This document shows, piece after piece, positions 4,603 through 14,324 of a stretch of DNA of 64,000 nt. The position numbers and the translations under genes were made by a program. This DNA is from an uncultured Rhizobiaceae group bacterium (lineage in GTDB: Bacteria > Pseudomonadota > Alphaproteobacteria > Rhizobiales > Rhizobiaceae): positions 248,001-312,000 of the forward strand of contig CALLUS010000002.1 of assembly GCA_938010435.1 (NCBI GenBank), read 5' to 3'. Each line of letters opens with the position of its first letter. Position 1 is the first letter of the stretch. The notes under the pieces were generated by a model. The model searched no databases, had not been told where the DNA came from, and saw only the letters and a program-made list of their open reading frames with translations.

Positions 4603-5280
4603 TTATTGGTTTTCGCGAACAGGACCGCCTTGGGACGAAATCAAACCCAACATCACGGTGACACGCTGCCTCATATTCGATGGTGTTTCAGAATCTTTAG
4701 CCAATTCTTCAAACTGCTCAAACGACTTCTCAAGGTCTCCAGCCTTGAAGTGTGCAAGTCCTAAAGCTTCACGCGCAGACGGCAAATAAGCACTGCCCGG
4801 CCCCATAAGTGGCGAAACCCTGCTGTCAACATCTGCAACCGATCCTGTATCAACCAAGATCATGGCAGCCCGAATACGCGAGATCGAACGAAAGTTTTCA
4901 TCAGCGGCAGTGTCGGCAATTATAGCGTCAAATGTTTCTACAGCTTTTTCAGAATCACCCTTTTTATGGAGTTCAACAGCAAGACGCATTTTGGCGGTCA
5001 CTTGATAGGCTGCAGACCCTTCAGATTCGATCTTGCCGAACGCAGCGATCGCTTCATCAGTCTTCCCATCAGTCGACAGACGCACAGCTTCCATAAAAGC
5101 GTCGCCATTTGCAGCAGCGGTTTGAGCCGATGAATACTCATAATAGCGATAGCCAGCGACACCTATAACGACTGCAACTGCCCCAGCAATTATCAGTTTG
5201 CCGTATTTTGACCAAAAGTTCTGCAATTGCTCATTGCGAAGCTCTTCTTCTACTTCGCGGATAAATGAATCGTCTGACAT
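4603..5280 (-). CDS. Membrane-anchored TPR protein, YfgM-like
   Basis: The 225-aa product starts with a charged segment (EVEEELRNEQLQNFWSKYGK) followed by one transmembrane helix, LIIAGAVAVVIGVAGYRYY. The periplasmic part is made of helical TPR-like repeats. This is the layout of the tetratricopeptide family (TPR_21/YfgM) usually found beside der or bamB in proteobacteria. YfgM in E. coli associates with the SecYEG translocon and PpiD. The same function here is an inference from fold and location. The stop is 42 bp before der, which suggests an operon. Confidence 0.85.
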   Translation of the reverse strand: MSDDSFIREVEEELRNEQLQNFWSKYGKLIIAGAVAVVIGVAGYRYYEYSSAQTAAANGDAFMEAVRLSTDGKTDEAIAAFGKIESEGSAAYQVTAKMRLAVELHKKGDSEKAVETFDAIIADTAADENFRSISRIRAAMILVDTGSVADVDSRVSPLMGPGSAYLPSAREALGLAHFKAGDLEKSFEQFEELAKDSETPSNMRQRVTVMLGLISSQGGPVRENQ

Positions 5281-5419
5281 GGATATGTGTCGCTCTATTG
5301 AAACACTGAACTTGTTGGCGCGTTTCTACATGAAATTTTAAAATAAGTAAGGGGGCAGGATATCAAACAGGGGTGGCGCCAAACAGCTAGCGACCACTTC
5401 ACAGATTGAACGACGCGCC

Positions 5420-5434
5420 CTATTCCCACTCAAT
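5420..5434. other. Left attachment site of the guaA element
   Basis: Read on the minus strand, this 15-bp site is ATTGAGTGGGAATAG, which encodes the Ile-Glu-Trp-Glu-stop ending of GuaA. It matches the guaA stop region at 12768-12782 in 14 of 15 positions; the only difference is the synonymous Glu codon GAA/GAG. It is therefore the displaced original 3' end of guaA, or its equivalent from the element. It marks the left boundary of a 7.35-kb insertion. Confidence 0.88.
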
Positions 5435-5453
5435 AAAAGCGTAAGTGTAAAAC

Positions 5454-5472
5454 ATTGATTTATATGGCATTT
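5454..5472 (+). repeat. 19-bp direct repeat, copy 1
   Basis: The sequence ATTGATTTATATGGCATTT occurs here and again at 10538-10556 in the same orientation, with different flanking bases. Copy 2 lies just upstream of the small tyrosine recombinase gene, the usual position of a recombinase's own target site. The two copies enclose 5.08 kb containing the Wzz-like, Trp-rich, AAA+ and hairpin-array regions. Use as a recombination site is an inference. Confidence 0.75.
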
Positions 5473-5480
5473 ATTTTCAC

Positions 5481-5500
5481 TTTCTAACAAGTTCCTAACT
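5481..5500 (+). repeat. Candidate integrase arm site, left (P' arm)
   Basis: The sequence matches TTTCTAACAAGTTNCTAACT, which also occurs at 12710-12729 (19 of 20 identical, same orientation). In the circularised element the two copies would flank the att core at about 47 and 39 bp. That is the placement expected of integrase arm-type binding sites. Shorter TTTCTAAC units occur at 12647-12654 and 12659-12666 at the other end. Confidence 0.6.
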
Positions 5501-5583
5501 TATCCACTCATTAGCAAGTACGAAGGGAACTATTGAAACTTAATAGTATCAATGTGTTAGTGAAAAGGCGATTGAAAGGTTTC

Positions 5584-6258
5584 TTACGCTTTAGCCAACT
5601 GCTCTTTACGCTTAGTCATAGCATTGCGGACAAGAATGAAGAACACACCAATCATCCCACCTAACACAACTGACAAAGCGAGTATCAACGGCACTTTAGG
5701 TGAGGACTTAACAACAGAAACTGAGCCAAAAGTGATAGCACTCTGCCCATTATCTATCGACTGAATCACTCTTTTGGCGTTCAACATATTTGTTGCGACT
5801 CTTTCTGTGCTCAACAAAGCGTCTGTTAGTTCAGTCTGTATAAGAGCAAGTTCAGTTGTTGCTTCTACAAACATTTCAGTAGTTAGCGCTGTGCTTGCTT
5901 GCTCTATTTGGACTTCGTAGTCACTTTGCTCCAAAGGAGACATTGTTGATAAAGATAACGTTGAACTCTTTTTTTCTTTACTCCAACTATCTCCTAACAA
6001 AGAGATAAAACGCTTAACCGCTTCTGACTCCATACAACCAATATTACTGCCGCAAATCTGTTGAGCACTAACAGAATAGACATTAGGAGTGTATGGAACT
6101 GAAACATCATATTTTGGTTGAGCGACTTGCGAATAACCAAATCCGATCAACGTTGCCAACGCTACGAACGCACTGATTAGCCACTTGCCATCCCATAACG
6201 TTTCAAAAAACTCAAACAAGTCGATTTCATCATCGTAAGTTGGACGAACTTCAGACAT
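5584..6258 (-). CDS. Wzz-like chain-length determinant protein
   Basis: The 224-aa product has the two-helix plan of polysaccharide co-polymerases of the Wzz family, which sit in the inner membrane and set the chain length of O-antigen or other surface polysaccharide. The N-terminal DEIDLFEFFETLWDGKW precedes the first helix (LISAFVALATLIGFGYS), and then comes the family-like AQPKYDVSVPY. The middle is a predicted helical periplasmic domain. The second helix, VPLILALSVVLGGMIGVFFILV, lies near the basic C-terminus. The start at 6258 has a strong GGAGGGG ribosome binding site; a longer frame upstream lacks one. It overlaps the 47-aa gene by one base (TAATG). It is the last gene of a three-gene operon in the element. 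A role in modifying the host surface is inferred. Confidence 0.72.
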   Translation of the reverse strand: MSEVRPTYDDEIDLFEFFETLWDGKWLISAFVALATLIGFGYSQVAQPKYDVSVPYTPNVYSVSAQQICGSNIGCMESEAVKRFISLLGDSWSKEKKSSTLSLSTMSPLEQSDYEVQIEQASTALTTEMFVEATTELALIQTELTDALLSTERVATNMLNAKRVIQSIDNGQSAITFGSVSVVKSSPKVPLILALSVVLGGMIGVFFILVRNAMTKRKEQLAKA

Positions 6259-6401
6259 TACAGCCCCTCCATCATTACTAGTGCTAAAGCGTAGATTGAA
6301 GCGGCACACCCCACCAAAATCAAAGCAATGAAGATTTTGGCTCCCCACGTGTAACGTGTTGATTTGCCTACATTATTGGGGGAGGTGGAGATTTGAGTCA
6401 T
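6258..6401 (-). CDS. 47-aa single-helix membrane peptide
   Basis: This short frame starts at an ATG complementing 6399-6401 and ends in a TAA that shares its last base with the start of the Wzz-like gene (TAATG). That overlap points to translational coupling. The product has a polar N-terminus of about 20 residues with basic K and R residues, then a hydrophobic stretch (AKIFIALILVGCAASIYALA) long enough to span the membrane, and a short tail. No family is recognised. It may be a partner or regulator of the Wzz-like protein, which is inference from position only. Its ribosome binding site is weak. Confidence 0.6.
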   Translation of the reverse strand: MTQISTSPNNVGKSTRYTWGAKIFIALILVGCAASIYALALVMMEGL

Positions 6402-6463
6402 AATAATAGTCCGAAAATCAATTAGTTAGGCATAAATCTATACCTTAAAGCCAACATTGTAAA

Positions 6464-7231
6464 CTAAGGAAAAACACCTTTCACTACATTAGAGATAGCA
6501 TCTACAGCAACCTTCTTCTTCCTACTAACAGCAACAGACACCACCCTTCGCTTGTACGCAACATTCCACTCTTCATCTGTGTTGCGTTGCTCAACCTCTA
6601 TGCCCACTTGCTTCGCCAACGCATAGTTATTCACTTTTGTGCCCTCAGTCTCTGCTTGTTCAATCAAGTCATACAACGCAAATGCTGTTTGAAGACTATC
6701 GATAGCGATTGGCTTTGATAGGCTGTAGCGAGCATTGGAACGGTTTGGATTACGTGTCTGCCTACCCTTCTCAAACTCAATGTGTTTTTTGAAGAGGCGA
6801 TTGAGTGTCTTATCAATGTGTGTTCGTTTCATACCTTTTGAAACACGTATCAACAACTCATCTTCGTCTGCTATCAAACGTTCTGCTGTAGCAACATCCT
6901 CAACCAACTCCACCTTCATTTCTGTCAGTGGTTCAGCAAACAGATACGCACCTTTCGTTTCACTATTGGCAAGTTTCGCATTCCACCACTTAGTAAACGC
7001 TACATACCTATCACCTTCATATCGCACATCACCAAAGTCTTCATACACCTTCAACAACTTCTTTTTCGTTTTAAAACGATTTGCTGAAGGGTTTCCGCAT
7101 AACGCCACATAGTCGTCATTCAGCGTTAGTGCCAACCACCAAAAAAAGTACGGTGATTGCTCTATCTTCCATTTTGTTGGATTCGCATAACTGCCAAACG
7201 TTGGATATTGAGAAATGAAGTAGCGACGCAT
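6464..7231 (-). CDS. Uncharacterised Trp-rich protein of the element
   Basis: The 255-aa product has no function I can name. The N-terminal half carries aromatic motifs: YFFWWLALTLNDDY (about residues 22-35), YEDFGDV, then F-x-KWW and LFAEP. This order resembles uncharacterised proteins I associate with genomic islands of marine proteobacteria, a tentative recollection. The C-terminal half is basic and helical and could bind nucleic acid. The start at 7231 was chosen because AGGT lies upstream and the frame then begins MRRYF; upstream in-frame codons lie in the GATAAC-repeat region. It heads the minus-strand operon with the 47-aa and Wzz-like genes, and is divergent from the 7403 gene. Confidence 0.72.
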   Translation of the reverse strand: MRRYFISQYPTFGSYANPTKWKIEQSPYFFWWLALTLNDDYVALCGNPSANRFKTKKKLLKVYEDFGDVRYEGDRYVAFTKWWNAKLANSETKGAYLFAEPLTEMKVELVEDVATAERLIADEDELLIRVSKGMKRTHIDKTLNRLFKKHIEFEKGRQTRNPNRSNARYSLSKPIAIDSLQTAFALYDLIEQAETEGTKVNNYALAKQVGIEVEQRNTDEEWNVAYKRRVVSVAVSRKKKVAVDAISNVVKGVFP

Positions 7232-7232
7232 T

Positions 7233-7372
7233 GTTATCAACCTAATGTGTTTTGATAAGTGATAACAGAAAGATACCAAAGCGTTATCAATAAACAAACA
7301 AGTTATTTCTCGTTGGAATGATAACAGACGGTTTTGAGAGATACTGATTACATCGTTGAGAACAGCGATAAC
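7233..7372. promoter_or_regulatory. Divergent control region with five GATAAC repeats
   Basis: The space between the divergent operons contains GTTATC or its complement GATAAC at 7233-7238, 7261-7266, 7283-7288, 7320-7325 and 7367-7372, plus a near copy, GATAAG, at 7254-7259. Such clustering in 140 bp suggests binding sites for an element-encoded protein. They could be operators of the two divergent operons or iterons of a replication origin. The AAA+ gene nearby makes both readings possible. No factor is identified. Confidence 0.5.
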
Positions 7373-7402
7373 CACTTAAACAACAGATATGAGGTATCTA
7401 TT

Positions 7403-8251
7403 ATGACTAACGCAAAAGACAATCAGTTGGAAATCAACAAAGCAGTATCAACACTAAAAACTAACCTTAAAAAACTACGCAGTAATGCCACTGAATGGCA
7501 TAACACGCAGTTCAAATCAGCAAACGATAGTTTGTATGCGATGTTTGCTGAACTTTATACATTGTATGAGCAATGTAAAAACAACATTGATGATGATGTC
7601 GAAACGCAAGTACGCAAATACGTTAGCGAAGCGTGTAAGCGTAAAGGCATCAAATTCAAAGCCAAAAAACCAACACTACAAGCACTACTTGTAAAGTACT
7701 TATTCGATGACGGAATTACTGCTGACTGTAAACGTATCAGTTCTTACGTGCGTGTTTTCACACTCTGTACAACATTAGATGAAGTTAACTCTTCAAATAT
7801 CGCCAAATGGATTTCTGAAAGAGGTGGCGTTGAAAATATTCGCCAACAACAAACTAAAAACAGTCTAACGACAAATGAACGTTCTGTTGAAGGGGAAAAA
7901 TTACTCAAATCAGCAGAAGAACAATCTTCGTTTGAAAACGATTTGACGCAAACATATGCGGCAACAAAGACAGACGAAGTAGTTCTATTAGTAGGTATTC
8001 AACAAGCAGATGGTAGCGTTTCAATTCGCCATACTATTTACGGTGAAGAAACCAACAGCAACATCAAAGGAAAAACAGCAATAAGGAATGCGTTAGCGAA
8101 TGTGTACAGCAAACACAAAGAACTTGCTGAAAAAACCGCAAAGCAAAACGAAGCAGAGCAACAGTTGGAAACTGAGGAAGATGCGGCAGAAGAAGCACTA
8201 AACAATAGCAATTCAACAACTGAAAAAGTTGAATTAAAGGAGGCGGCGTAA
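7403..8251 (+). CDS. Hypothetical protein coupled to the AAA+ ATPase
   Basis: The 282-aa product has no recognised family. The N-terminal ~100 residues are helical and polar. The middle (about 200-245) has a compact segment, ADGSVSIRHTIYGEE. The last ~60 residues are a strongly acidic predicted coiled coil rich in E, A and N. The start at 7403 has a GAGG site eight bases upstream; an earlier in-frame ATG at 7334 lies among the GATAAC repeats and is less likely. The stop overlaps the ATG of the AAA+ gene (TAATG), so the two proteins are probably made together and may act as one complex. A replication role is an inference. Confidence 0.7.
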   Translation: MTNAKDNQLEINKAVSTLKTNLKKLRSNATEWHNTQFKSANDSLYAMFAELYTLYEQCKNNIDDDVETQVRKYVSEACKRKGIKFKAKKPTLQALLVKYLFDDGITADCKRISSYVRVFTLCTTLDEVNSSNIAKWISERGGVENIRQQQTKNSLTTNERSVEGEKLLKSAEEQSSFENDLTQTYAATKTDEVVLLVGIQQADGSVSIRHTIYGEETNSNIKGKTAIRNALANVYSKHKELAEKTAKQNEAEQQLETEEDAAEEALNNSNSTTEKVELKEAA

Positions 8252-8940
8252 TGGCAAATTTTCAACCAAAAGCGATTGATGATTTTGTTTACTCAAAACC
8301 TTCAACAAAGAGTTTGATTAAAGAGATACTTACACAGCAGTTAGATTTTCCTTCAAACGGAAAAAACAGTTTGATGCTGTATGGTATTGGCGGCAGTGGT
8401 AAGACAACGTTTGCCAACTTTTTCTTCAAACAATATGAAGCAATGTTTGGTGGAGAGACGCCACTTGTTGAGAGTATTGATGTTGATGGAGATAAGGATA
8501 TTTTCATCACACTTAAGCATCTCAACAAACTTTCGTCACAAGTTGGTTTCTTAAACCATTCAAGCAAGTGGTACTTCCTATTTGATGAGTTTGATGGCTA
8601 CACAGAACGGCAACAGCGAAGACTTAAAAGTTGGCTGAATAGTGAAAACATAGTTTGTATTATGACAACGAACTACATTGATAAGATTGATAAGGGCATC
8701 TTACGCAGATGCCACATCATCAACTTCAATGCGTCTAATAACACAAGTGACTATGTTGAACGCATTCAAACGATGATTGCCAACAACAATCTGCCATCAT
8801 TAGATACACAAACGCTTATTGGCATTGCTGATAGAGGCAAAGGCGATTGGACAAAGATGTGTGTGGAGGTTGTCAGACATTGTAATAGGCAGATGAGTTC
8901 CCCAACCAAACCTACAACGCCCAAACTTCGTATCGTCTAA
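8251..8940 (+). CDS. Clamp-loader-like AAA+ ATPase
   Basis: The 229-aa product has the motifs of a small AAA+ ATPase. Walker A is GIGGSGKTT, Walker B is FLFDEFD, sensor 1 is MTTNYIDKI, and an arginine motif, GILRRC, sits where clamp loaders such as RFC carry their SRC motif. It most resembles small-subunit clamp loaders or replication ATPases of phages and plasmids. It lacks the clamp-loader collar domain because it ends soon after the AAA+ lid. A strong ribosome binding site (AAAGGAGG) precedes the ATG, which overlaps the stop of the upstream gene. A role in copying or maintaining the element is likely but not shown. Confidence 0.78.
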   Translation: MANFQPKAIDDFVYSKPSTKSLIKEILTQQLDFPSNGKNSLMLYGIGGSGKTTFANFFFKQYEAMFGGETPLVESIDVDGDKDIFITLKHLNKLSSQVGFLNHSSKWYFLFDEFDGYTERQQRRLKSWLNSENIVCIMTTNYIDKIDKGILRRCHIINFNASNNTSDYVERIQTMIANNNLPSLDTQTLIGIADRGKGDWTKMCVEVVRHCNRQMSSPTKPTTPKLRIV

Positions 8941-8952
8941 TACACAGAAAAA

Positions 8953-8981
8953 CGGCACTACTCGTTAGTGCTGTTTTTTTT
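8953..8981 (+). terminator. Rho-independent terminator after the AAA+ gene
   Basis: An eight-pair stem, CGGCACTA / TAGTGCTG, with one G-T pair and a five-base loop is followed by a run of eight T. It lies 12 bases after the stop codon of the AAA+ gene, so it ends the plus-strand operon. Confidence 0.85.
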
Positions 8982-9119
8982 GTAACAAGTATTTGAAACC
9001 CACCTCACTATACCTTCATCGAATTCCGTCAATTGATATATGACAACCTACCAAACCGTGCGATTTAGACTCGTTTTGCCGCATTTCAATCAAACCAATC
9101 GTTTCTTTATCTACGCTAT

Positions 9120-9133
9120 TCGTTTTAAAACGA
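9120..9133. repeat. 14-bp palindrome TCGTTTTAAAACGA, copy 2
   Basis: This perfect palindrome directly precedes the stop codon complement of the 131-aa gene. The identical 14-mer occurs at 7066-7079 inside the Trp-rich gene. Two exact copies in 7 kb are unlikely by chance, though the AT-rich core makes it less striking. Function is unknown. Confidence 0.5.
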
Positions 9134-9529
9134 TTAAAATGGCGACTGCGGCTTTATAGGCTTTAGTTCAGTCTGCTTCTGTAAGTAGTCTTTGCGTATG
9201 TCGCTTATATCCTTACTCGTAAATGATTGACTTCCAACAGCACTATTTGGCGTTGCTTGTTGCGTCGTATTGGAGACTGAAGGCTGTGTTGGCTTCACTG
9301 ATGGGAAGGGTTTGGCTTTGGCAATACCTTTGCTTTTCTTTGCTGTCTTTTTCTTTGCCTTGTCTGTTGGCTGAAGACTTTTTCTTACCCTCAAATCAAT
9401 CCTATCACTCATATCTTTAACAGCGTTCGCCATCGTTTTCATATCGTCTAACGTTTGTTCTAAAGGTGCTGTAAATGATTGCTGTTTGACGATATCAATC
9501 AACTTACGCATTTCATCTTTGTAGTCCAT
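9134..9529 (-). CDS. Hypothetical basic, low-complexity protein
   Basis: The 131-aa product has a helical N-terminus of about 45 residues (predicted coiled coil), a short strongly basic stretch (KAKKKTAKKSKGIAKAK), then a Pro/Ser/Thr/Gln-rich segment and a charged C-terminus. No family is recognised. The basic centre could contact DNA. The start at 9529 has AAGGAATAGGG upstream. It lies 103 bp downstream of the 109-aa gene on the same strand. A seven-pair hairpin is located in the gap at 9549-9568. Confidence 0.6.
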   Translation of the reverse strand: MDYKDEMRKLIDIVKQQSFTAPLEQTLDDMKTMANAVKDMSDRIDLRVRKSLQPTDKAKKKTAKKSKGIAKAKPFPSVKPTQPSVSNTTQQATPNSAVGSQSFTSKDISDIRKDYLQKQTELKPIKPQSPF

Positions 9530-9548
9530 TCCCTATTCCTTAAAGTAT

Positions 9549-9568
9549 GGTGGTGTAAAATCACCACC
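9549..9568. other. Perfect hairpin between two small element genes
   Basis: GGTGGTG and CACCACC form a perfect seven-base-pair stem around a six-base loop. No T run follows on either strand, so it is not a simple terminator. It may be an operator or an RNA element between the 109-aa and 131-aa genes. Confidence 0.5.
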
Positions 9569-9632
9569 TCAAATCTGTAAGTACTTCCCTATAAAAATCC
9601 GCACAGCATATTTTTTGTCAGCAGAACCCTTT

Positions 9633-9962
9633 TCACTGCTGTTCAGCCATCTGTGTCATCCATACGTGCTTACTCTGTTGATACATCGCACTATCTAAAC
9701 GTGCTGACAGCACTTCAAAATCAGATGCCAACTTGCGGCTGTCGTTATCAGCCTTTTGCTTCAACGCTTCGCTGTAATGCTTCAACTTACTGCTACACAC
9801 AGCAATAGCACTGACTGATGGTGGCTTTTGGTTATGCTTCAAACAGCGAAAATAACTATCTCCTCTATTCAGCCAATCCCTACAAAACTCTCTCTTCGTA
9901 TCCACCACACCAATCTTGTTCAGTAGCGTATAAGTTTCTTCAAATACCATTTCTGCCGTCAT
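9633..9962 (-). CDS. Small uncharacterised protein of the element
   Basis: The 109-aa product is largely helical. The central motif FCRDWLNRGDSYFRCLKHNQ followed by PSVSAIAVCSSKL resembles small conserved proteins of alphaproteobacteria (DUF6626-like), a tentative match from memory. Such an arrangement could be a helix-turn-helix-like DNA-binding fold, but no canonical motif is clear. The ATG has a good GGAG site six bases upstream. It is divergent from the 54-aa frame at 10004. Confidence 0.65.
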   Translation of the reverse strand: MTAEMVFEETYTLLNKIGVVDTKREFCRDWLNRGDSYFRCLKHNQKPPSVSAIAVCSSKLKHYSEALKQKADNDSRKLASDFEVLSARLDSAMYQQSKHVWMTQMAEQQ

Positions 9963-10003
9963 TTCTGTCTCCGTAGATAAATAAACGTGTAGGCAGAAAC
10001 GCT

Positions 10004-10168
10004 ATGCCTACAACGTATTTAGCAACACATAGGCTTCAAACATTAGGCAATGAAAAGGCTACAAGTGCCCAACTAAATGACATCGAGTTTGCCAACGAAG
10101 GTTGTCGCCAACGGATTTTGTCAGCACACATTAGCGGAACTTACATATTCGCTTTACAAAACAAGTAA
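10004..10168 (+). CDS. Possible 54-aa small protein
   Basis: This short frame begins at an ATG with a weak AGGCAG site and lies inside a small inverted repeat (TAGGCA...TGCCTA, 9991-10011). The product is polar and helical, with no recognised family. Base composition is compatible with coding. A further 25-codon hydrophobic frame (10175-10252) starts just after its stop behind an AGAGGAA site, but is too short to call. Confidence is low without homologues. Confidence 0.35.
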   Translation: MPTTYLATHRLQTLGNEKATSAQLNDIEFANEGCRQRILSAHISGTYIFALQNK

Positions 10169-10537
10169 GAGGAAATGCTTGTAGTTAATACAAGAGCACA
10201 CAGCACATCTGTCGTTGTGTTGTGCGTTGCGTTGGTTCTTACATCTGTATAGGTAGCACAGCCCAACCCCTACCAAACTTCAAACGAAGAAGGCAGATGA
10301 CGACAGCGACTGATGTAGCAACTCAAATGAGACATTAGGTTGTAAGGAGGCTGTGTAGCCTTCTTACGACTGAACACAATCTAAATGAGCCATCAAAAGT
10401 AATAAGAAGAAAACTACGCAGATATGTCGTCAGACATATCAAGTTGTTCAAACGAAGTTTGAACATTCACTTACAAAGAAAATGTAAGGAAGTATGAAGA
10501 ATATTACGTTCTGACGTAAGTCATTGAAAATCAAATG
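10169..10537. other. Non-coding region with an array of five hairpins
   Basis: This ~370-bp region has no convincing gene but contains five successive inverted repeats. 10339-10370 is a 14-pair stem with a GTGT loop and two G-T pairs. 10421-10440 is a perfect eight-pair stem with loop GTCA. 10445-10465 is a perfect nine-pair stem with loop GAA. 10470-10488 is a perfect six-pair stem. 10504-10519 is a perfect six-pair stem with loop TCTG. They lie directly upstream of the small recombinase gene and of repeat copy 2. Possible roles are a structured RNA, a single-strand replication origin, or recombination substrates folded as hairpins. Confidence 0.7.
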
Positions 10538-10556
10538 ATTGATTTATATGGCATTT
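10538..10556 (+). repeat. 19-bp direct repeat, copy 2
   Basis: This is an exact copy of 5454-5472. It begins 91 bases before the ATG chosen for the small tyrosine recombinase and overlaps possible alternative starts (TTG 10539, ATG 10548). The location next to a recombinase gene fits a recombination target site. Confidence 0.75.
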
Positions 10557-10628
10557 TCGGTAGGAAAAATAAAAGTAAGAAAGCACACTTGTACGTACGA
10601 AAACATTACATTTGATGGGATTTGTACG

Positions 10629-11195
10629 ATGAAACAAGCAAAAGTACTGACAGACAAAGAACTCAACAAAGTATTAGACGTCATTTCACTCTACGCACAC
10701 GCAGAACGAAACAGAGCAATGGTGCTACTGACGCACTTGTGTGGATTGAGGGTATGCGAGTTAGCCAATCTACGTGTAAGCGATGTAGTAAATGAAAGTG
10801 GCGAAATACGAGATTTGCTGTATTTGGATGCTACGCAGACAAAAGGAAGCGAAGTTAGACGTGTGTTTATGGGCAAACGAGCAAAGTCAGCACTTAAACG
10901 GTACCTACAAAGCAATACAAGCGTCTTACAGCGTACTTTTCTGTTCAACACGCAAAAGAGTAAGCGATTCAACACAAACGCACTTACGCAACTGATAAAG
11001 CGTTTGTATGAACGAAGCGGCATTAGAGGAGCAAGTAGCCACAGCGGTAGACGCTCATTTATCACAAACTTGGCGAACAAAGGCGTAAATGTGCGTGTGA
11101 TAGCAGAGTTAGCCTCTCACAAGTCCATACAGACAACTCAACGATACATTGAAGCGTCAGAAACGACGTTGGCAAAGGCGGTGGATTTGCTGTGA
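10629..11195 (+). CDS. Small tyrosine recombinase, catalytic domain only
   Basis: The 188-aa product consists only of a tyrosine recombinase catalytic domain. It has the first Arg in CGLRVCELANL, a Lys in TQTKGSE, the box HSGRRSFIT, then ELASHKS and the nucleophile Tyr in TTQRYI. The N-terminal core-binding domain of XerC/D is missing, as in FimB/FimE-type invertases. The frame is open further upstream (TTG 10539 or ATG 10548), but family similarity begins at MKQAKVLTDKEL, so 10629 was chosen; the ribosome binding site is weak for all starts. It probably recombines sites within or next to the element. The 50-aa gene follows with a GTGA overlap. Confidence 0.85.
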   Translation: MKQAKVLTDKELNKVLDVISLYAHAERNRAMVLLTHLCGLRVCELANLRVSDVVNESGEIRDLLYLDATQTKGSEVRRVFMGKRAKSALKRYLQSNTSVLQRTFLFNTQKSKRFNTNALTQLIKRLYERSGIRGASSHSGRRSFITNLANKGVNVRVIAELASHKSIQTTQRYIEASETTLAKAVDLL

Positions 11196-11344
11196 AACGC
11201 TTCAGCACACACAAGTTGGAGAAAAAACTGAAAAGAGCAGAACGGCACAAAGATTGGCTGAAAAAGAATCTGCCAAACACAACGCAACAGCGGAACAATC
11301 AAAAGGAAATACTTAAACTGCTGACAGAAATACGAGTACGTTAG
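11192..11344 (+). CDS. 50-aa basic peptide coupled to the recombinase
   Basis: A GTG start overlaps the TGA of the recombinase gene (GTGA), suggesting translational coupling. The 50-aa product is very basic and helical (KLEKKLKRAERHKDWLKK), and resembles the small directionality factors or accessory DNA-binding peptides of recombinases only in size and charge. The stop codon overlaps the end of the convergent integrase gene by four bases. No family is recognised. Confidence 0.5.
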   Translation: MKRFSTHKLEKKLKRAERHKDWLKKNLPNTTQQRNNQKEILKLLTEIRVR

Positions 11345-12618
11345 TCTTCTGCTATCTCTTTGCCTAATGCGTATATCTTTCCATCTTTACGCACAAAACG
11401 AGCCGTAGCCACTGCTCTCATCTTCTCTTCGTTCAAATGATAATACGTGCTCTCAATCTGCTTCACAGATGTCCCACAATAAAACGCCACATCACTCAAA
11501 CTCACACCACTTAAAACTTGGTTAGTGATGGCTAAATGGCGAAGGCTGTAGGGCACTAACAACTCTCTCTTATCCAAAGCAATGTCTGTTAGTAGCATTA
11601 TCTGTTTCCAATGACGCTGTAAGCGATAACGCTCATACTCTTCTTCGCCATCCAAACTAAAAATCAAACCTTCAGTGTTGCCGCCATATTCTTTCTGTAT
11701 CACTTTCCAACGCTGTAAGTACTCGCCACCTCTACACCAAAACGTGCGTTCTTTACGCACTTTAGTGGTGGCTTTGCGGATATTTACACGCACCAACATC
11801 AACTCATCGCCATTGTCGCTTTCTTTGTGAATGCTGACATCACTCCAACGTAGTTGCCTCTGCTCACCACTCCGCAAACCACTATTCGCCGCAAACAAGC
11901 ACCAATGCCTAACAAGTTCGCGTTCAAATGCGTCTTTGTCAGATAGTCTGTTTTTCACTTTGGCTACATAAGAACGCATTGACGTATAAAACGACTTCCA
12001 TTCGTCGTGTGTAAAAGTCATACGCTGTACTTCTTCGCCACTCTTTGTCGCACTACCCTCTATCTTCAAACTTGGTAAGCGGAAACGTGGGAAAGAAGTG
12101 ATTTGCTCAATGTCGCAAAGATGACGCTGACACGCATTGATTGAAGCCATTTCATTGCGAACGGTTTGTTTTGAAGCACCTTGTTCAGTACGGAAAAGCA
12201 CGTAGTTAGTTTCTTTGCCTTTCCACTCAAACTTCACAAGCGTGTTGATGCCCAAGTTAGCGGCTTTTTCGTTTTCGCCAACGTACTCAATAAAGTGATT
12301 GAGATGAGCACGTATGGTTACCCATCGTCCTTCAACAATCTCTTTGGTGCGTACATCAATCTTTCTGTGTTCCAAATAGATAGCAACAGCATCAGCAATA
12401 GAGACAGAGAATAACTTTCTGCCATCCTTCAACTCATTCTGTAAGTCAAAGTACATTTCTTCTGCTTTGTCGATAGCCTCTGCTCTGCGTTTGGTACGCA
12501 AAGACTTTTCGTAATAACGCTTTTCGTTGCTTACCCACATACGAAACTGCCACACTCCAAACTTGTTCTGTTTGATAGTCGCTTTGCCGCCGTATATGTC
12601 TATCCGTTCAGTGCTCAA
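11341..12618 (-). CDS. int: Tyrosine integrase of the guaA element
   Basis: The 425-aa product has a full integrase architecture: an N-terminal arm-binding part (about 1-60), a SAM-like core-binding domain (about 70-190) and a catalytic domain (about 210-415). Catalytic residues visible are Arg in SGLRSGEQRQL, Lys in the TTKVRKER strand, Arg in YSLRHLAIT (Tyr replaces the first His of the HxxR box) and Tyr in QIESTYYHL. The position of the second His/Trp appears to be in FYCGTS, as in several phage-type integrases. It lies at the guaA-proximal end of the element, reading inward, 150 bp from the att site. It is the obvious enzyme for integration at guaA. Confidence 0.93.
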   Translation of the reverse strand: MSTERIDIYGGKATIKQNKFGVWQFRMWVSNEKRYYEKSLRTKRRAEAIDKAEEMYFDLQNELKDGRKLFSVSIADAVAIYLEHRKIDVRTKEIVEGRWVTIRAHLNHFIEYVGENEKAANLGINTLVKFEWKGKETNYVLFRTEQGASKQTVRNEMASINACQRHLCDIEQITSFPRFRLPSLKIEGSATKSGEEVQRMTFTHDEWKSFYTSMRSYVAKVKNRLSDKDAFERELVRHWCLFAANSGLRSGEQRQLRWSDVSIHKESDNGDELMLVRVNIRKATTKVRKERTFWCRGGEYLQRWKVIQKEYGGNTEGLIFSLDGEEEYERYRLQRHWKQIMLLTDIALDKRELLVPYSLRHLAITNQVLSGVSLSDVAFYCGTSVKQIESTYYHLNEEKMRAVATARFVRKDGKIYALGKEIAED

Positions 12619-12767
12619 AATCTACGCTTTGTAATAGTTGATGTAGTTTCTAACTTTCTTTCTAACACTAAAGAAAAAAGCCAACAGAATCAACCATTGG
12701 CTTTCGTAGTTTCTAACAAGTTACTAACTATAAATATAAATAAAATCAATAACTTAGACTATATGGA
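12619..12767. other. Right end of the element: arm sites upstream of int
   Basis: The 12-mer GTAGTTTCTAAC occurs at 12643-12654 and again at 12706-12717. The core TTTCTAAC recurs at 12659-12666. The copy at 12710-12729 is extended to the 20-bp sequence that matches the left end at 5481-5500. This spacing and repetition near the attachment core are what integrase arm-type sites look like. The integrase promoter must also lie here. Confidence 0.6.
12671..12704 (-). terminator. Terminator for guaA supplied by the element
   Basis: On the minus strand AAAGCCAA and TTGGCTTT form an eight-pair stem with a 12-base loop, followed by a run of six T (TTTTTTC). It lies 64 bases after the guaA stop codon but inside the element. 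After integration the element therefore provides the transcription end for guaA, and shields its own integrase region. Confidence 0.75.
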
Positions 12768-12782
12768 CTACTCCCACTCAAT
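12768..12782. other. Right attachment site within guaA
   Basis: The last four codons and stop of guaA (ATTGAGTGGGAGTAG on the minus strand) match 5420-5434 in 14 of 15 bases. This is the guaA-proximal junction of the element. The gene keeps its normal ending Ile-Glu-Trp-Glu, so the insertion does not truncate GuaA. Confidence 0.88.
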
Positions 12783-14324
12783 TGTCCCGGGGGGTTTGCT
12801 GGTCACATCATAAACCACGCGGTTGATGCCTTGGACTTCGTTGATAATCCGTGTGGCGGCCTTTCCAAGAAACGCCATATCGTAGGGATAGAAGTCAGCG
12901 GTCATGCCGTCAACAGACGTCACAGCACGTAAGGCACAAACGAATTCGTAAGTCCTGCCATCGCCCATAACTCCAACGGTTTGTACGGGAAGCAGCACAG
13001 CAAAGGCTTGCCAAATTTCATCGTATAAACCTGCTTTACGGATTTCATCGAGATAAACGGCATCAGCTTTTTTCAAAATTTCCAATTTATCGCGTGTAAT
13101 CCCGCCAGGGCAACGTATCGCGAGACCCGGCCCGGGGAATGGATGACGACCAATAAAGCTGTCAGGCAGACCGAGTTCACGACCCAACGCGCGAACCTCA
13201 TCTTTAAACAATTCGCGTAATGGTTCGACCAATTGCATATTCATACGATCCGGCAGTCCGCCCACATTATGGTGGGATTTGATCGTAACAGACGGGCCAC
13301 CACTAAATGACACGCTTTCAATGACGTCAGGATAAAGTGTTCCTTGGGCTAAAAACTCAGCGCCGCCAAGTTTTTTGGCTTCGGCCTCAAACACATCAAT
13401 AAACAGCTTACCGATGGTTTTGCGCTTGGTTTCAGGGTCGGCCTCGCCTTCTAGCGCATCTATGAACATGTCAGCCGCGTTCACGTGCACGAGCGGGATA
13501 TTGTAATTGTCGCGGAACATTTGCACCACGTCTTCCGCTTCATTCATGCGCATCAAGCCGTGATCGACTAGAATACAGGTGAGTTGATCACCCACTGCTT
13601 CGTGGATAAGCGCCGCGGCAACCGATGAATCCACACCGCCGGATAGACCACAAATGACACGCTTATCACCAACTTGTTCGCGAATTTTGGCAATGGCACG
13701 GTCTTTGTAAGCCGCCATGGTCCAATCACCTTTGAGGCCACAAATTTTGTGAACGAAATTGGCAAGAATTTTTCCGCCATCGGGCGTGTGAACGACCTCA
13801 GGGTGAAATTGGGTTGTGTAGTATTTTCGATCTTCATTCACTGCGACGGCAAGCGGTGCATTTTCAGATGTGGCGATGACCTCAAAACCATCAGGCAGTT
13901 TGGTGACGCGATCCCCATGGCTCATCCATACCTGATAATCTTTGCCTTGTTCCCAAACATCTTCGAACAATGGACTGTCTTTATGGATGATGATTTCCGC
14001 GCGGCCGAACTCGCGATGATGTCCGCCTTCAACTTGCCCACCCAATTGGTGGGCCGTGACTTGTTGACCATAGCAAATGCCAAACACTGGAATACCAGCA
14101 TCAAAAACAGCTTGCGGCGCCAGTGGCGCATTGTCATCGTGGACAGATGCAGGACTGCCGGAAAGAATGACGCCCTTTGGATTGAGGCGTTTGAAGCCTT
14201 CATCTGCAGATTGGAACGGTACAATTTCGCAATAAACGCCCGTTTCGCGAACACGACGCGCAATCAGCTGGGTCACCTGACTGCCGAAATCAATAATGAG
14301 GATCGTCTGCTCGGGAGCGGCCAT
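12768..14324 (-). CDS. guaA: GMP synthase (glutamine-hydrolysing)
   Basis: GuaA converts XMP to GMP using ATP and glutamine. The N-terminal class I glutamine amidotransferase domain has the nucleophile Cys in GICYGQQ and the His/Glu pair in QFHPEV. The ATP-pyrophosphatase domain has the P-loop [15 protein letters not shown]. The C-terminal dimerisation domain ends GTIEWE. Length of 518 aa is normal. The last bases serve as attachment site for the element at 5420-12782. guaB lies about 3.6 kb upstream on the same strand. Confidence 0.98.

Follow-up and report, generated by a model that had tools for sequence, protein, structure and literature searches.

A probable plasmid-like integrative element at the 3′ end of guaA in an uncultured Rhizobiaceae bacterium

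Integrative and mobilizable elements (IMEs) have been described at the 3′ end of guaA; the available part of a review names GISul2, the Brucella suis IncP island and ATE-1 there, and describes relaxases resembling rolling-circle replication (RCR) initiators among IMEs (PMC5704250). The marine satellites called PICMI, in the available part of their description, are defined by int, alpA and primase alone and are typically found next to fis (PMC10803314), and the strand-biased circularizing integrative elements (SEs), in a likewise partial source, have intA-tfp-intB-srap as an operon at their left end, and no empty site stays behind them (PMC10214605). The stretch of DNA described here, referred to as the window, comprises 64,000 nucleotides of an uncultured Rhizobiaceae group bacterium (genome G000, contig C2, positions 248001-312000; loci are labelled L and genomes G), and was found to contain an element of 7363 bp (5420-12782) directly past the guaA stop. 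From its sequence it is well supported as a discrete mobile, plasmid-like integrative element, and its reading as a compact element of that kind with surface-glycan cargo and no recognised transfer genes is regarded as probable.

The guaA element and its ends

The host GMP synthase gene guaA (12768-14324, minus strand; PF00117 and PF00958) serves as the integration site, and its last bases form the attL core CTACTCCCACTCAAT (12768-12782, plus strand), the present 3′ end of the gene. The attR core CTATTCCCACTCAAT (5420-5434, plus strand), the host-side copy of the guaA stop region, was found to be identical to it at 14/15 bp. On both strands of the window no third place comes within one mismatch of the guaA core, and no sign of a coincidental repeat was seen. 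Comparable cores were found in relatives at L055:2878 and L056:11273, with a candidate at L107:5010. Just inside each end a 20-bp arm-type repeat, TTTCTAACAAGTT[C/A]CTAACT, was present at 5481-5500 and at 12710-12729 (both plus strand, 19/20 identical), which fits a role of the two copies as arm sites of the integrase. The gene of a tyrosine integrase (11341-12618, minus strand; Phage_integrase PF00589, E 2.7e-7) lies beside guaA; with this gene next to its target and a direct repeat at either end, the element has the features of site-specific integration. The GC content was 0.36-0.45 within the element and about 0.46-0.53 in the flanking windows. An earlier note on this DNA had reported the 15-bp repeat of the guaA stop region, the integrase at the guaA end and the AT-richer content, and all three were recovered.

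The element was absent from guaA in all 13 congener loci compared (eight element proteins, E 1e-3; 14 congeners in total, G008 being the one left out). The guaA gene was found together with YfgM in 10 of the 13 loci and without it in L033, L040 and L044, and L040 stops inside guaA. In the nearest relative (G013, guaA 97% identical) the guaA end was uninterrupted, so target sites without the element are present among relatives, and the occurrence in all relatives that the earlier note had named as a refuting result was not seen. An ABC-transporter operon lies between guaA and YfgM in G013, and the flank is therefore not colinear with the window. An oligopeptide-type ABC operon and a hydrolase-like open reading frame (ORF), named by inspection, were observed between YfgM and guaA of the nearest relative (L032:2868-10569), where the window has the element. 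Among 43 guaA loci from 32 genomes, 30 of the loci covering just about 1.5 kb of flank, the integrase or other tested element proteins were found only in the window genome.

Relatives and transfer between classes

A 7.6-kb element with matching cores at 2878 and 10499 was found at guaA of Marinomonas transparens (L055), a member of the Gammaproteobacteria. Five of its proteins were closely similar to those of the window: the conserved proteins encoded at 6464-7231 (94% identical) and 9134-9529 (95%), the DUF6626 protein (9633-9962; PF20331, E 4.6e-28; 95%) that is the hallmark of the element family, all three on the minus strand, the small recombinase (10629-11195, plus strand; 97%) and the integrase (96%). 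For these five genes the synonymous divergence (dS) was 0.12-0.29, the nonsynonymous divergence (dN) 0.014-0.035 and dN/dS 0.06-0.16. The guaA of the two hosts was 54% identical, with dS saturated, and the window host guaA was closest to those of Shinella, Sinorhizobium, Aminobacter and Methylobacterium (best 12 of 418 in the plasmid collection), all Alphaproteobacteria. Element proteins at 94-97% against guaA at 54% imply that the element crossed bacterial classes, at a time well after the divergence of its hosts. The low dN/dS against the Marinomonas copy indicates that the element genes are under purifying selection.

These values also bear on the idea that a larger island or prophage has decayed here into a remnant that no longer moves. 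No recognised replication initiator or any transfer gene was found in the element, and in one relative (L111) the integrase and partner genes are interrupted, as would suit such a remnant. However, the ends and catalytic residues are intact in the window, dN/dS against the Marinomonas copy lies well below 1, the comparison points to transfer between classes, and gene order is conserved in several genomes; we consider a remnant very unlikely.

Searching genome contigs for the small recombinase gave 11 loci, of which L055, L056 and L057 were found to carry further element genes. L056, from a Pseudomonadota genome, contained a 4.3-kb guaA element with cores at 7024 and 11273, and in L107 (G250) the guaA element spans about 7.2 kb, its candidate left core at 5010 differing at two positions. 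The integrases of L055, L056 and L107 were 96%, 43% and 40% identical to that of the window, and the three guaA elements share core genes with it. At L056:11273-11340 the host-side sequence past the far core was observed to look like the inner end of an element of this family, which would fit an earlier insertion or its remnant next to the present one, and guaA may accumulate insertions. Elsewhere the integrase adjoins tRNA-Met (L106, in G429) or, in two pieces, lies next to tRNA-Cys (L111, in G639, found via DUF6626), where the partner gene is also interrupted. L057, a Rhodocyclales metagenome-assembled genome (MAG), contained homologues of the 6464, 7403 and AAA+ proteins. The search across the class with the AAA+ protein matched 10/385 genomes at E 0.001, and besides the window genome G429 and G196 (L115) hold other element genes.

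DUF6626-type genes were found in 13/297 genomes of the host family (own profile), in 8/398 genomes of the phylum (Pfam model, 7 over the cut-off), the window genome being counted in both, and in 0/14 control genomes; this sparse distribution is as expected of a mobile family. Three weak DUF6626 matches (G1070, G1018 and G1021) were left out of the locus set. Besides DUF6626, the small family DUF6641 was seen to recur with these elements (L107:5231-5662, L111:13406-13849, L115:5641-6072 and L057:4464-4907) and was not found in the window element.

In viral sequence the small-recombinase profile matched 24 IMG/VR loci, four of which (L119-L122) carry further family markers or an integrase. L122 also contained terminase- and portal-like ORFs (named by inspection), and L121 contained DUF6641, DUF6626, an ORF with the HUH motif, an EcoO109I-like endonuclease and a methylase-like ORF, the last by inspection. 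At L121:2300-14900 the element seems to interrupt a prophage capsid-like gene, both halves of which seem readable at its sides by inspection of the translations. A block of three ORFs of about 570-610, 420-440 and 310 aa was seen to recur by size and order at L119:12848-16849, L120:9701-13758 and L109:12875-16868, and its L119 copies had no Pfam or PHROG match. In a Nitrospirae-labelled MAG (L059:9885-10105) part of the RNA candidate treated below (83% identical to window 10308-10421) was seen fused directly to the C-terminal end of the small recombinase.

The IMG/VR loci raise the question whether the element is a phage satellite that is induced and packaged by a helper phage, like PICMI; its small size, the lack of structural genes, the integrase at one end and surface-glycan or restriction cargo suited to phage competition would all agree with that. 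Against it, neither AlpA nor a PICMI-type primase was found among the element ORFs with Pfam and PHROGs, blastn with the whole element found nothing similar in 50,697 phage records and nothing in the plasmid collection, and close relatives of the integrase or AAA+ protein were absent from the IMG/VR scans; absence from these collections is compatible with packaging. In IMG/VR neither the AAA+ protein nor the integrase as single proteins, nor the integrase profile, gave a match; two DNA patterns of the RNA candidate gave none, and a third matched 28 stretches, none with an element protein or the RNA. A satellite is considered unlikely. The earlier note had left a satellite and a plasmid-like element side by side; the plasmid-like part stands (same site, shared core genes, 94-97% identity, element-free guaA), and the satellite part found no direct support.

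Exchanged modules and the slot beside DUF6626

The window and Marinomonas elements were found to share four blastn blocks, at 5421-5584 (84%), 6468-7380 (93%), 8989-10022 (90%) and from 10479 onward into guaA (87%), and to be separated by three clean swaps between the conserved blocks. In the first, at the left end, the window contained a short Wzz-like chain-length protein of 224 aa (5584-6258, minus strand; Wzz PF02706, E 1.5e-11; WzzB NCBIfam E 7.6e-15, far below its cut-off) and L055 an AT3-SGNH acyltransferase. L107 also contained an AT3 acyltransferase, its SGNH part lying under the Pfam cut-off, so that a surface-glycan gene was present in three of the four guaA elements and absent from L056. 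A 47-aa ORF with one apparent membrane helix (6258-6401, minus strand) was read from the sequence, its stop adjoining the Wzz start. Restriction-type genes were found in L120 (helicase and methylase domains), in L121 and L106 (endonuclease domains) and, by inspection, in L115. No link of Wzz with prophage or seroconversion was found in the open-access literature.

In the second swap a gene pair of the window is replaced by a 162-aa ORF without a Pfam match in L055. The pair contained a helical partner protein (7403-8251, plus strand; AlphaFold pLDDT 78), whose stop overlaps the next start (TAATG), followed by an AAA+ ATPase of 229 aa (8251-8940, plus strand) resembling replication factor C (RFC) and clamp loaders; homologues of the partner stand beside AAA+ in L106, L111 (interrupted by a stop; its downstream ORF alone was used in alignment A5), L115 and L057. 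The ATPase was found to contain conserved Walker A, Walker B and sensor-1 residues, with best profile alignment to RFC subunits (E 7e-19); it also matched Pfam AAA+ (E 2.2e-7) and the clamp loader phrog_168 (E 1e-21) and was 23% identical to Synechococcus phage clamp loaders. Judged by length only, it lacks the C-terminal collar domain, at 229 aa against about 315-360 aa in full RFC small-subunit chains, and the profile match ends at the AAA+ domains. Divergent from this operon, the 6464 protein had homologues in L055, L111, L106, L115 and L057, no Pfam match and an AlphaFold pLDDT of 70; three Bradyrhizobium plasmids were found to match it at the protein level (28%, covering 59%), and it is possibly a replication or regulatory protein. 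The models of the 6464 and 7403 proteins matched no PDB fold at E <= 0.001. The 9134 protein had homologues in L055, L056 and L106 and more distant ones in L107, L115 and L111.

The third swap sets the non-coding block 10023-10478 of the window, within a region without a long ORF (9963-10628), against a 155-aa ORF with HUH features in L055 (Pfam REP_ORF2-G2P, E 3e-4, below the cut-off). The ORF divergent from DUF6626 was found to contain invariant E, HxH and YxxK(E) in 4/4 aligned sequences (L055, L056, L109 and L110). A divergent neighbour with the HUH motif was present in 12/25 DUF6626 loci, against 6/373 among the remaining ORFs of these loci that reach 120 aa; four of the 12 (L055, L056, L109, L110) had been used to set the motif, L158 and L159 are one genome, and L112 was omitted from the 25 for in-frame stops. 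The motif was beside DUF6626 in 7/10 loci fetched after it had been set. The other 13 loci comprised the window, L106 and L107 with the RNA candidate, L115 with its first block, L163 with an HUH profile match without the strict motif, L119, which runs to the contig end, and L108, L111, L113, L114, L120, L156 and L164 with neither HUH motif nor RNA. The proposal that HUH and RFC-like modules are strict alternatives held in the first ten loci and was withdrawn on L158 and L163.

An integrative and mobilizable element, conjugatively mobilised via an unrecognised origin of transfer (oriT), would agree with the guaA 3′-end IMEs and RCR-initiator-like relaxases in the available part of the IME review (PMC5704250), the HUH protein of the relatives then being a non-canonical relaxase. 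The window element, however, has no recognised relaxase and no protein with the HxH and YxxK motifs of an HUH-type Rep; oriT was not sought. No capsid, terminase, relaxase or type IV secretion system family was found above chance among nine ORFs scanned with Pfam and PHROGs to E 1, and with NCBIfam to E 0.01 for eight ORFs, in line with the earlier note; chance-level PHROG matches named a virion structural protein (E 0.084) and a holin (E 0.2), and a defence-system library gave just weak AAA+ fragments and one weak recombinase fragment. We judge mobilisation of this kind quite unlikely.

Where L055 has its HUH-type gene, the window has a candidate structured RNA, or else a structured origin of replication, placed at 10094-10394 (plus strand). 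Over window 10010-10392, L106 showed 92% identity and L107 about 68%; since the neighbouring proteins are just 33-48% identical to those of L106, the module itself seems to have been exchanged. A DNA search of 385 genomes with the non-coding stretch recovered G429 and G250 besides the window genome; a further match in G423, of 44 nt only, was taken as chance, no element protein being found on that stretch. Folding of 9990-10545 alone gave a z of -4.54, and the opposite strand gave -4.52; folding energy therefore does not decide the strand. The three-sequence alignment contained an 85-pair consensus with 96% of cells paired and compensatory change at eight pairs, of which a single helix of seven pairs holds four, the consensus having been derived from the same three sequences, which favours it. 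Pairing, compensatory-pair count and covariation score were reached by 0/500 shuffles, and slid versions of the alignment gave 0-4 compensatory pairs. At eight pairs all three sequences have G-U, and this speaks for a plus-strand RNA, in the same direction as the L055 HUH gene; the long closing stem is invariant and so has no covariation support. L115 was considered as a fourth RNA, its first block aligning, and was not counted since the covariance model gave no match at E 5. Rfam gave no match over 5000-13400, even at E 1. The RNA candidate of about 300 nt in the HUH slot is unproven.

Downstream of it, several short, near-perfect hairpins in a row (10414-10560, plus strand) were seen in the sequence and partly in the fold, followed by the small recombinase, a minimal Xer-like tyrosine recombinase of 188 aa with the catalytic domain only (Pfam E 2.1e-31). 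Its catalytic R, K, HxxR, H and Y were invariant in 8/8 aligned sequences (L112, with in-frame stops in its genes, was excluded); XerA, XerD and XerC profiles align over the C-terminal, catalytic parts only, below curated cut-offs, as does the match to a tyrosine-type DNA invertase family fall below its own (E 1e-13). The start is probably 10629, not 10539, because relatives align from 10629. The gene set of the earlier note, two tyrosine recombinases, an RFC-like AAA+ ATPase and a Wzz-like protein, was borne out by profile, with this start corrected.

The 24-bp repeat D1 (5449-5472, plus strand), with copies at 10533-10556 and, weaker, at 10600-10623, is perhaps a recombinase or accessory site. 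In L055 the corresponding places hold copies (1-5 half-site mismatches), and one with three mismatches lies just inside the far end of L056. A narrower assignment of the repeats at 5449, 10533 and 10600 as recombination sites of the small recombinase was set aside, copies occurring only in L055 and more weakly in L056, and none with fewer than four mismatches in the six other loci scanned (L107, L106, L111, L115, L057 and L112).

Proposed cycle and comparison with described systems

In the cycle proposed for a plasmid-like integrative element, the tyrosine integrase would recombine a circle-borne copy of the guaA 3′ end with chromosomal guaA, which would stay intact; this integration step is supported by the element ends and the guaA loci without the element. 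Once excised, the element would probably be replicated for a short time in circular form through an exchangeable module, which in many relatives may be the HUH-type rolling-circle initiator divergent from DUF6626. In the window that module would be the structured RNA or origin region together with the RFC-like AAA+ pair, and this pair may load or recruit the host replisome. The small Xer-like recombinase would probably serve multimer resolution or module exchange, and the cargo of the left-end slot (Wzz here, AT3 acyltransferases in two relatives) may alter the host envelope and possibly block phages. Having no recognisable transfer genes, the element would ride another vehicle.

A bolder version is put forward only tentatively and is regarded as unlikely: in the branch of the family to which the window element belongs, a structured RNA of about 300 nt, divergent from DUF6626, would have functionally replaced the HUH initiator, the RNA as primer or scaffold and the RFC-like ATPase would start circle replication in place of a nicking enzyme, and the two systems would be swapped as cassettes.

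Several points weigh against these proposals. Excision, the circular form and its replication are predicted here from genome sequence. L107 has the RNA without the AAA+ and 6464 proteins, and those two therefore cannot be the sole replication genes; L158 was found to contain both HUH and AAA+ modules, and L163 an HUH profile match together with the partner gene. The HUH identity is read from the motif and one weak Pfam match: the HUH ORFs of L056 and the longer one of L121 had no Pfam match, those of L109 and L110 no NCBIfam match, and a four-sequence HUH profile matched no PDB chain at E 1. The RNA is based on three sequences, two of them 92% alike; one of five covariation measures, further pair types, was unexceptional (reached by 69/500 shuffles), and a covariance model of the 3′ half found just its three source sequences at E 0.001 when run on 22 loci, on another 10 loci and on 385 genomes. 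A consensus scan gave neither promoter nor terminator near the RNA. The host was found to contain two other, long Wzz-domain ORFs, which makes the effect of a third uncertain.

If the proposals are true, a small family of mobile elements crosses bacterial classes without visible transfer machinery while carrying envelope and restriction genes, and a protein replication initiator has been exchanged for an RNA or origin module at one slot. Two questions would then become testable, by what route islands without transfer genes travel and whether an RNA can take the place of an HUH initiator.

The earlier note had also suggested a new type. That holds solely in so far as the open-access papers searched on guaA integrative elements and satellites yielded no account of the family, nor any mention of DUF6626; guaA itself is already a known island site, as the note had stated and as the IMEs in the available part of the review show (PMC5704250). 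With PICMI the element shares very small size, an integrase, the lack of capsid genes and a marine relative (Marinomonas), and it differs from the available part of their description in its site, guaA and not fis, and in that alpA and primase were not found (PMC10803314); no AlpA match was obtained, and the only trace of a DUF3987/DUF5906 primase was a DUF5906 fragment, below threshold, matched by the AAA+ protein (E 0.069). With the SEs it shares more than one tyrosine recombinase. Set against the available part of their source, its two recombinase genes face each other, one encodes the catalytic domain only, no third recombinase-like gene is present and element-free guaA exists (PMC10214605); the intA-tfp-intB-srap operon was not seen in the ORF list or Pfam scan. 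Tycheposons and VEIMEs can be likened to it by name only, as marine integrative elements, from a source available in part (PMC11389934).

With the guaA IMEs it has a tyrosine integrase and insertion at the guaA 3′ end in common, and two of them carry replication genes; the available part of the review gives RepA/RepC or antitoxin genes for these IMEs and counts them as mobilizable (PMC5704250). The window element has no relaxase or RepA/RepC match and contains instead the RFC-like ATPase, DUF6626 and the structured RNA candidate, the two being set apart here by descriptions, not sequences. The element is ordinary in principle, since guaA islands are known, and unusual in composition, and the apparent swap of an HUH-type gene for a structured non-coding module is its interesting part.

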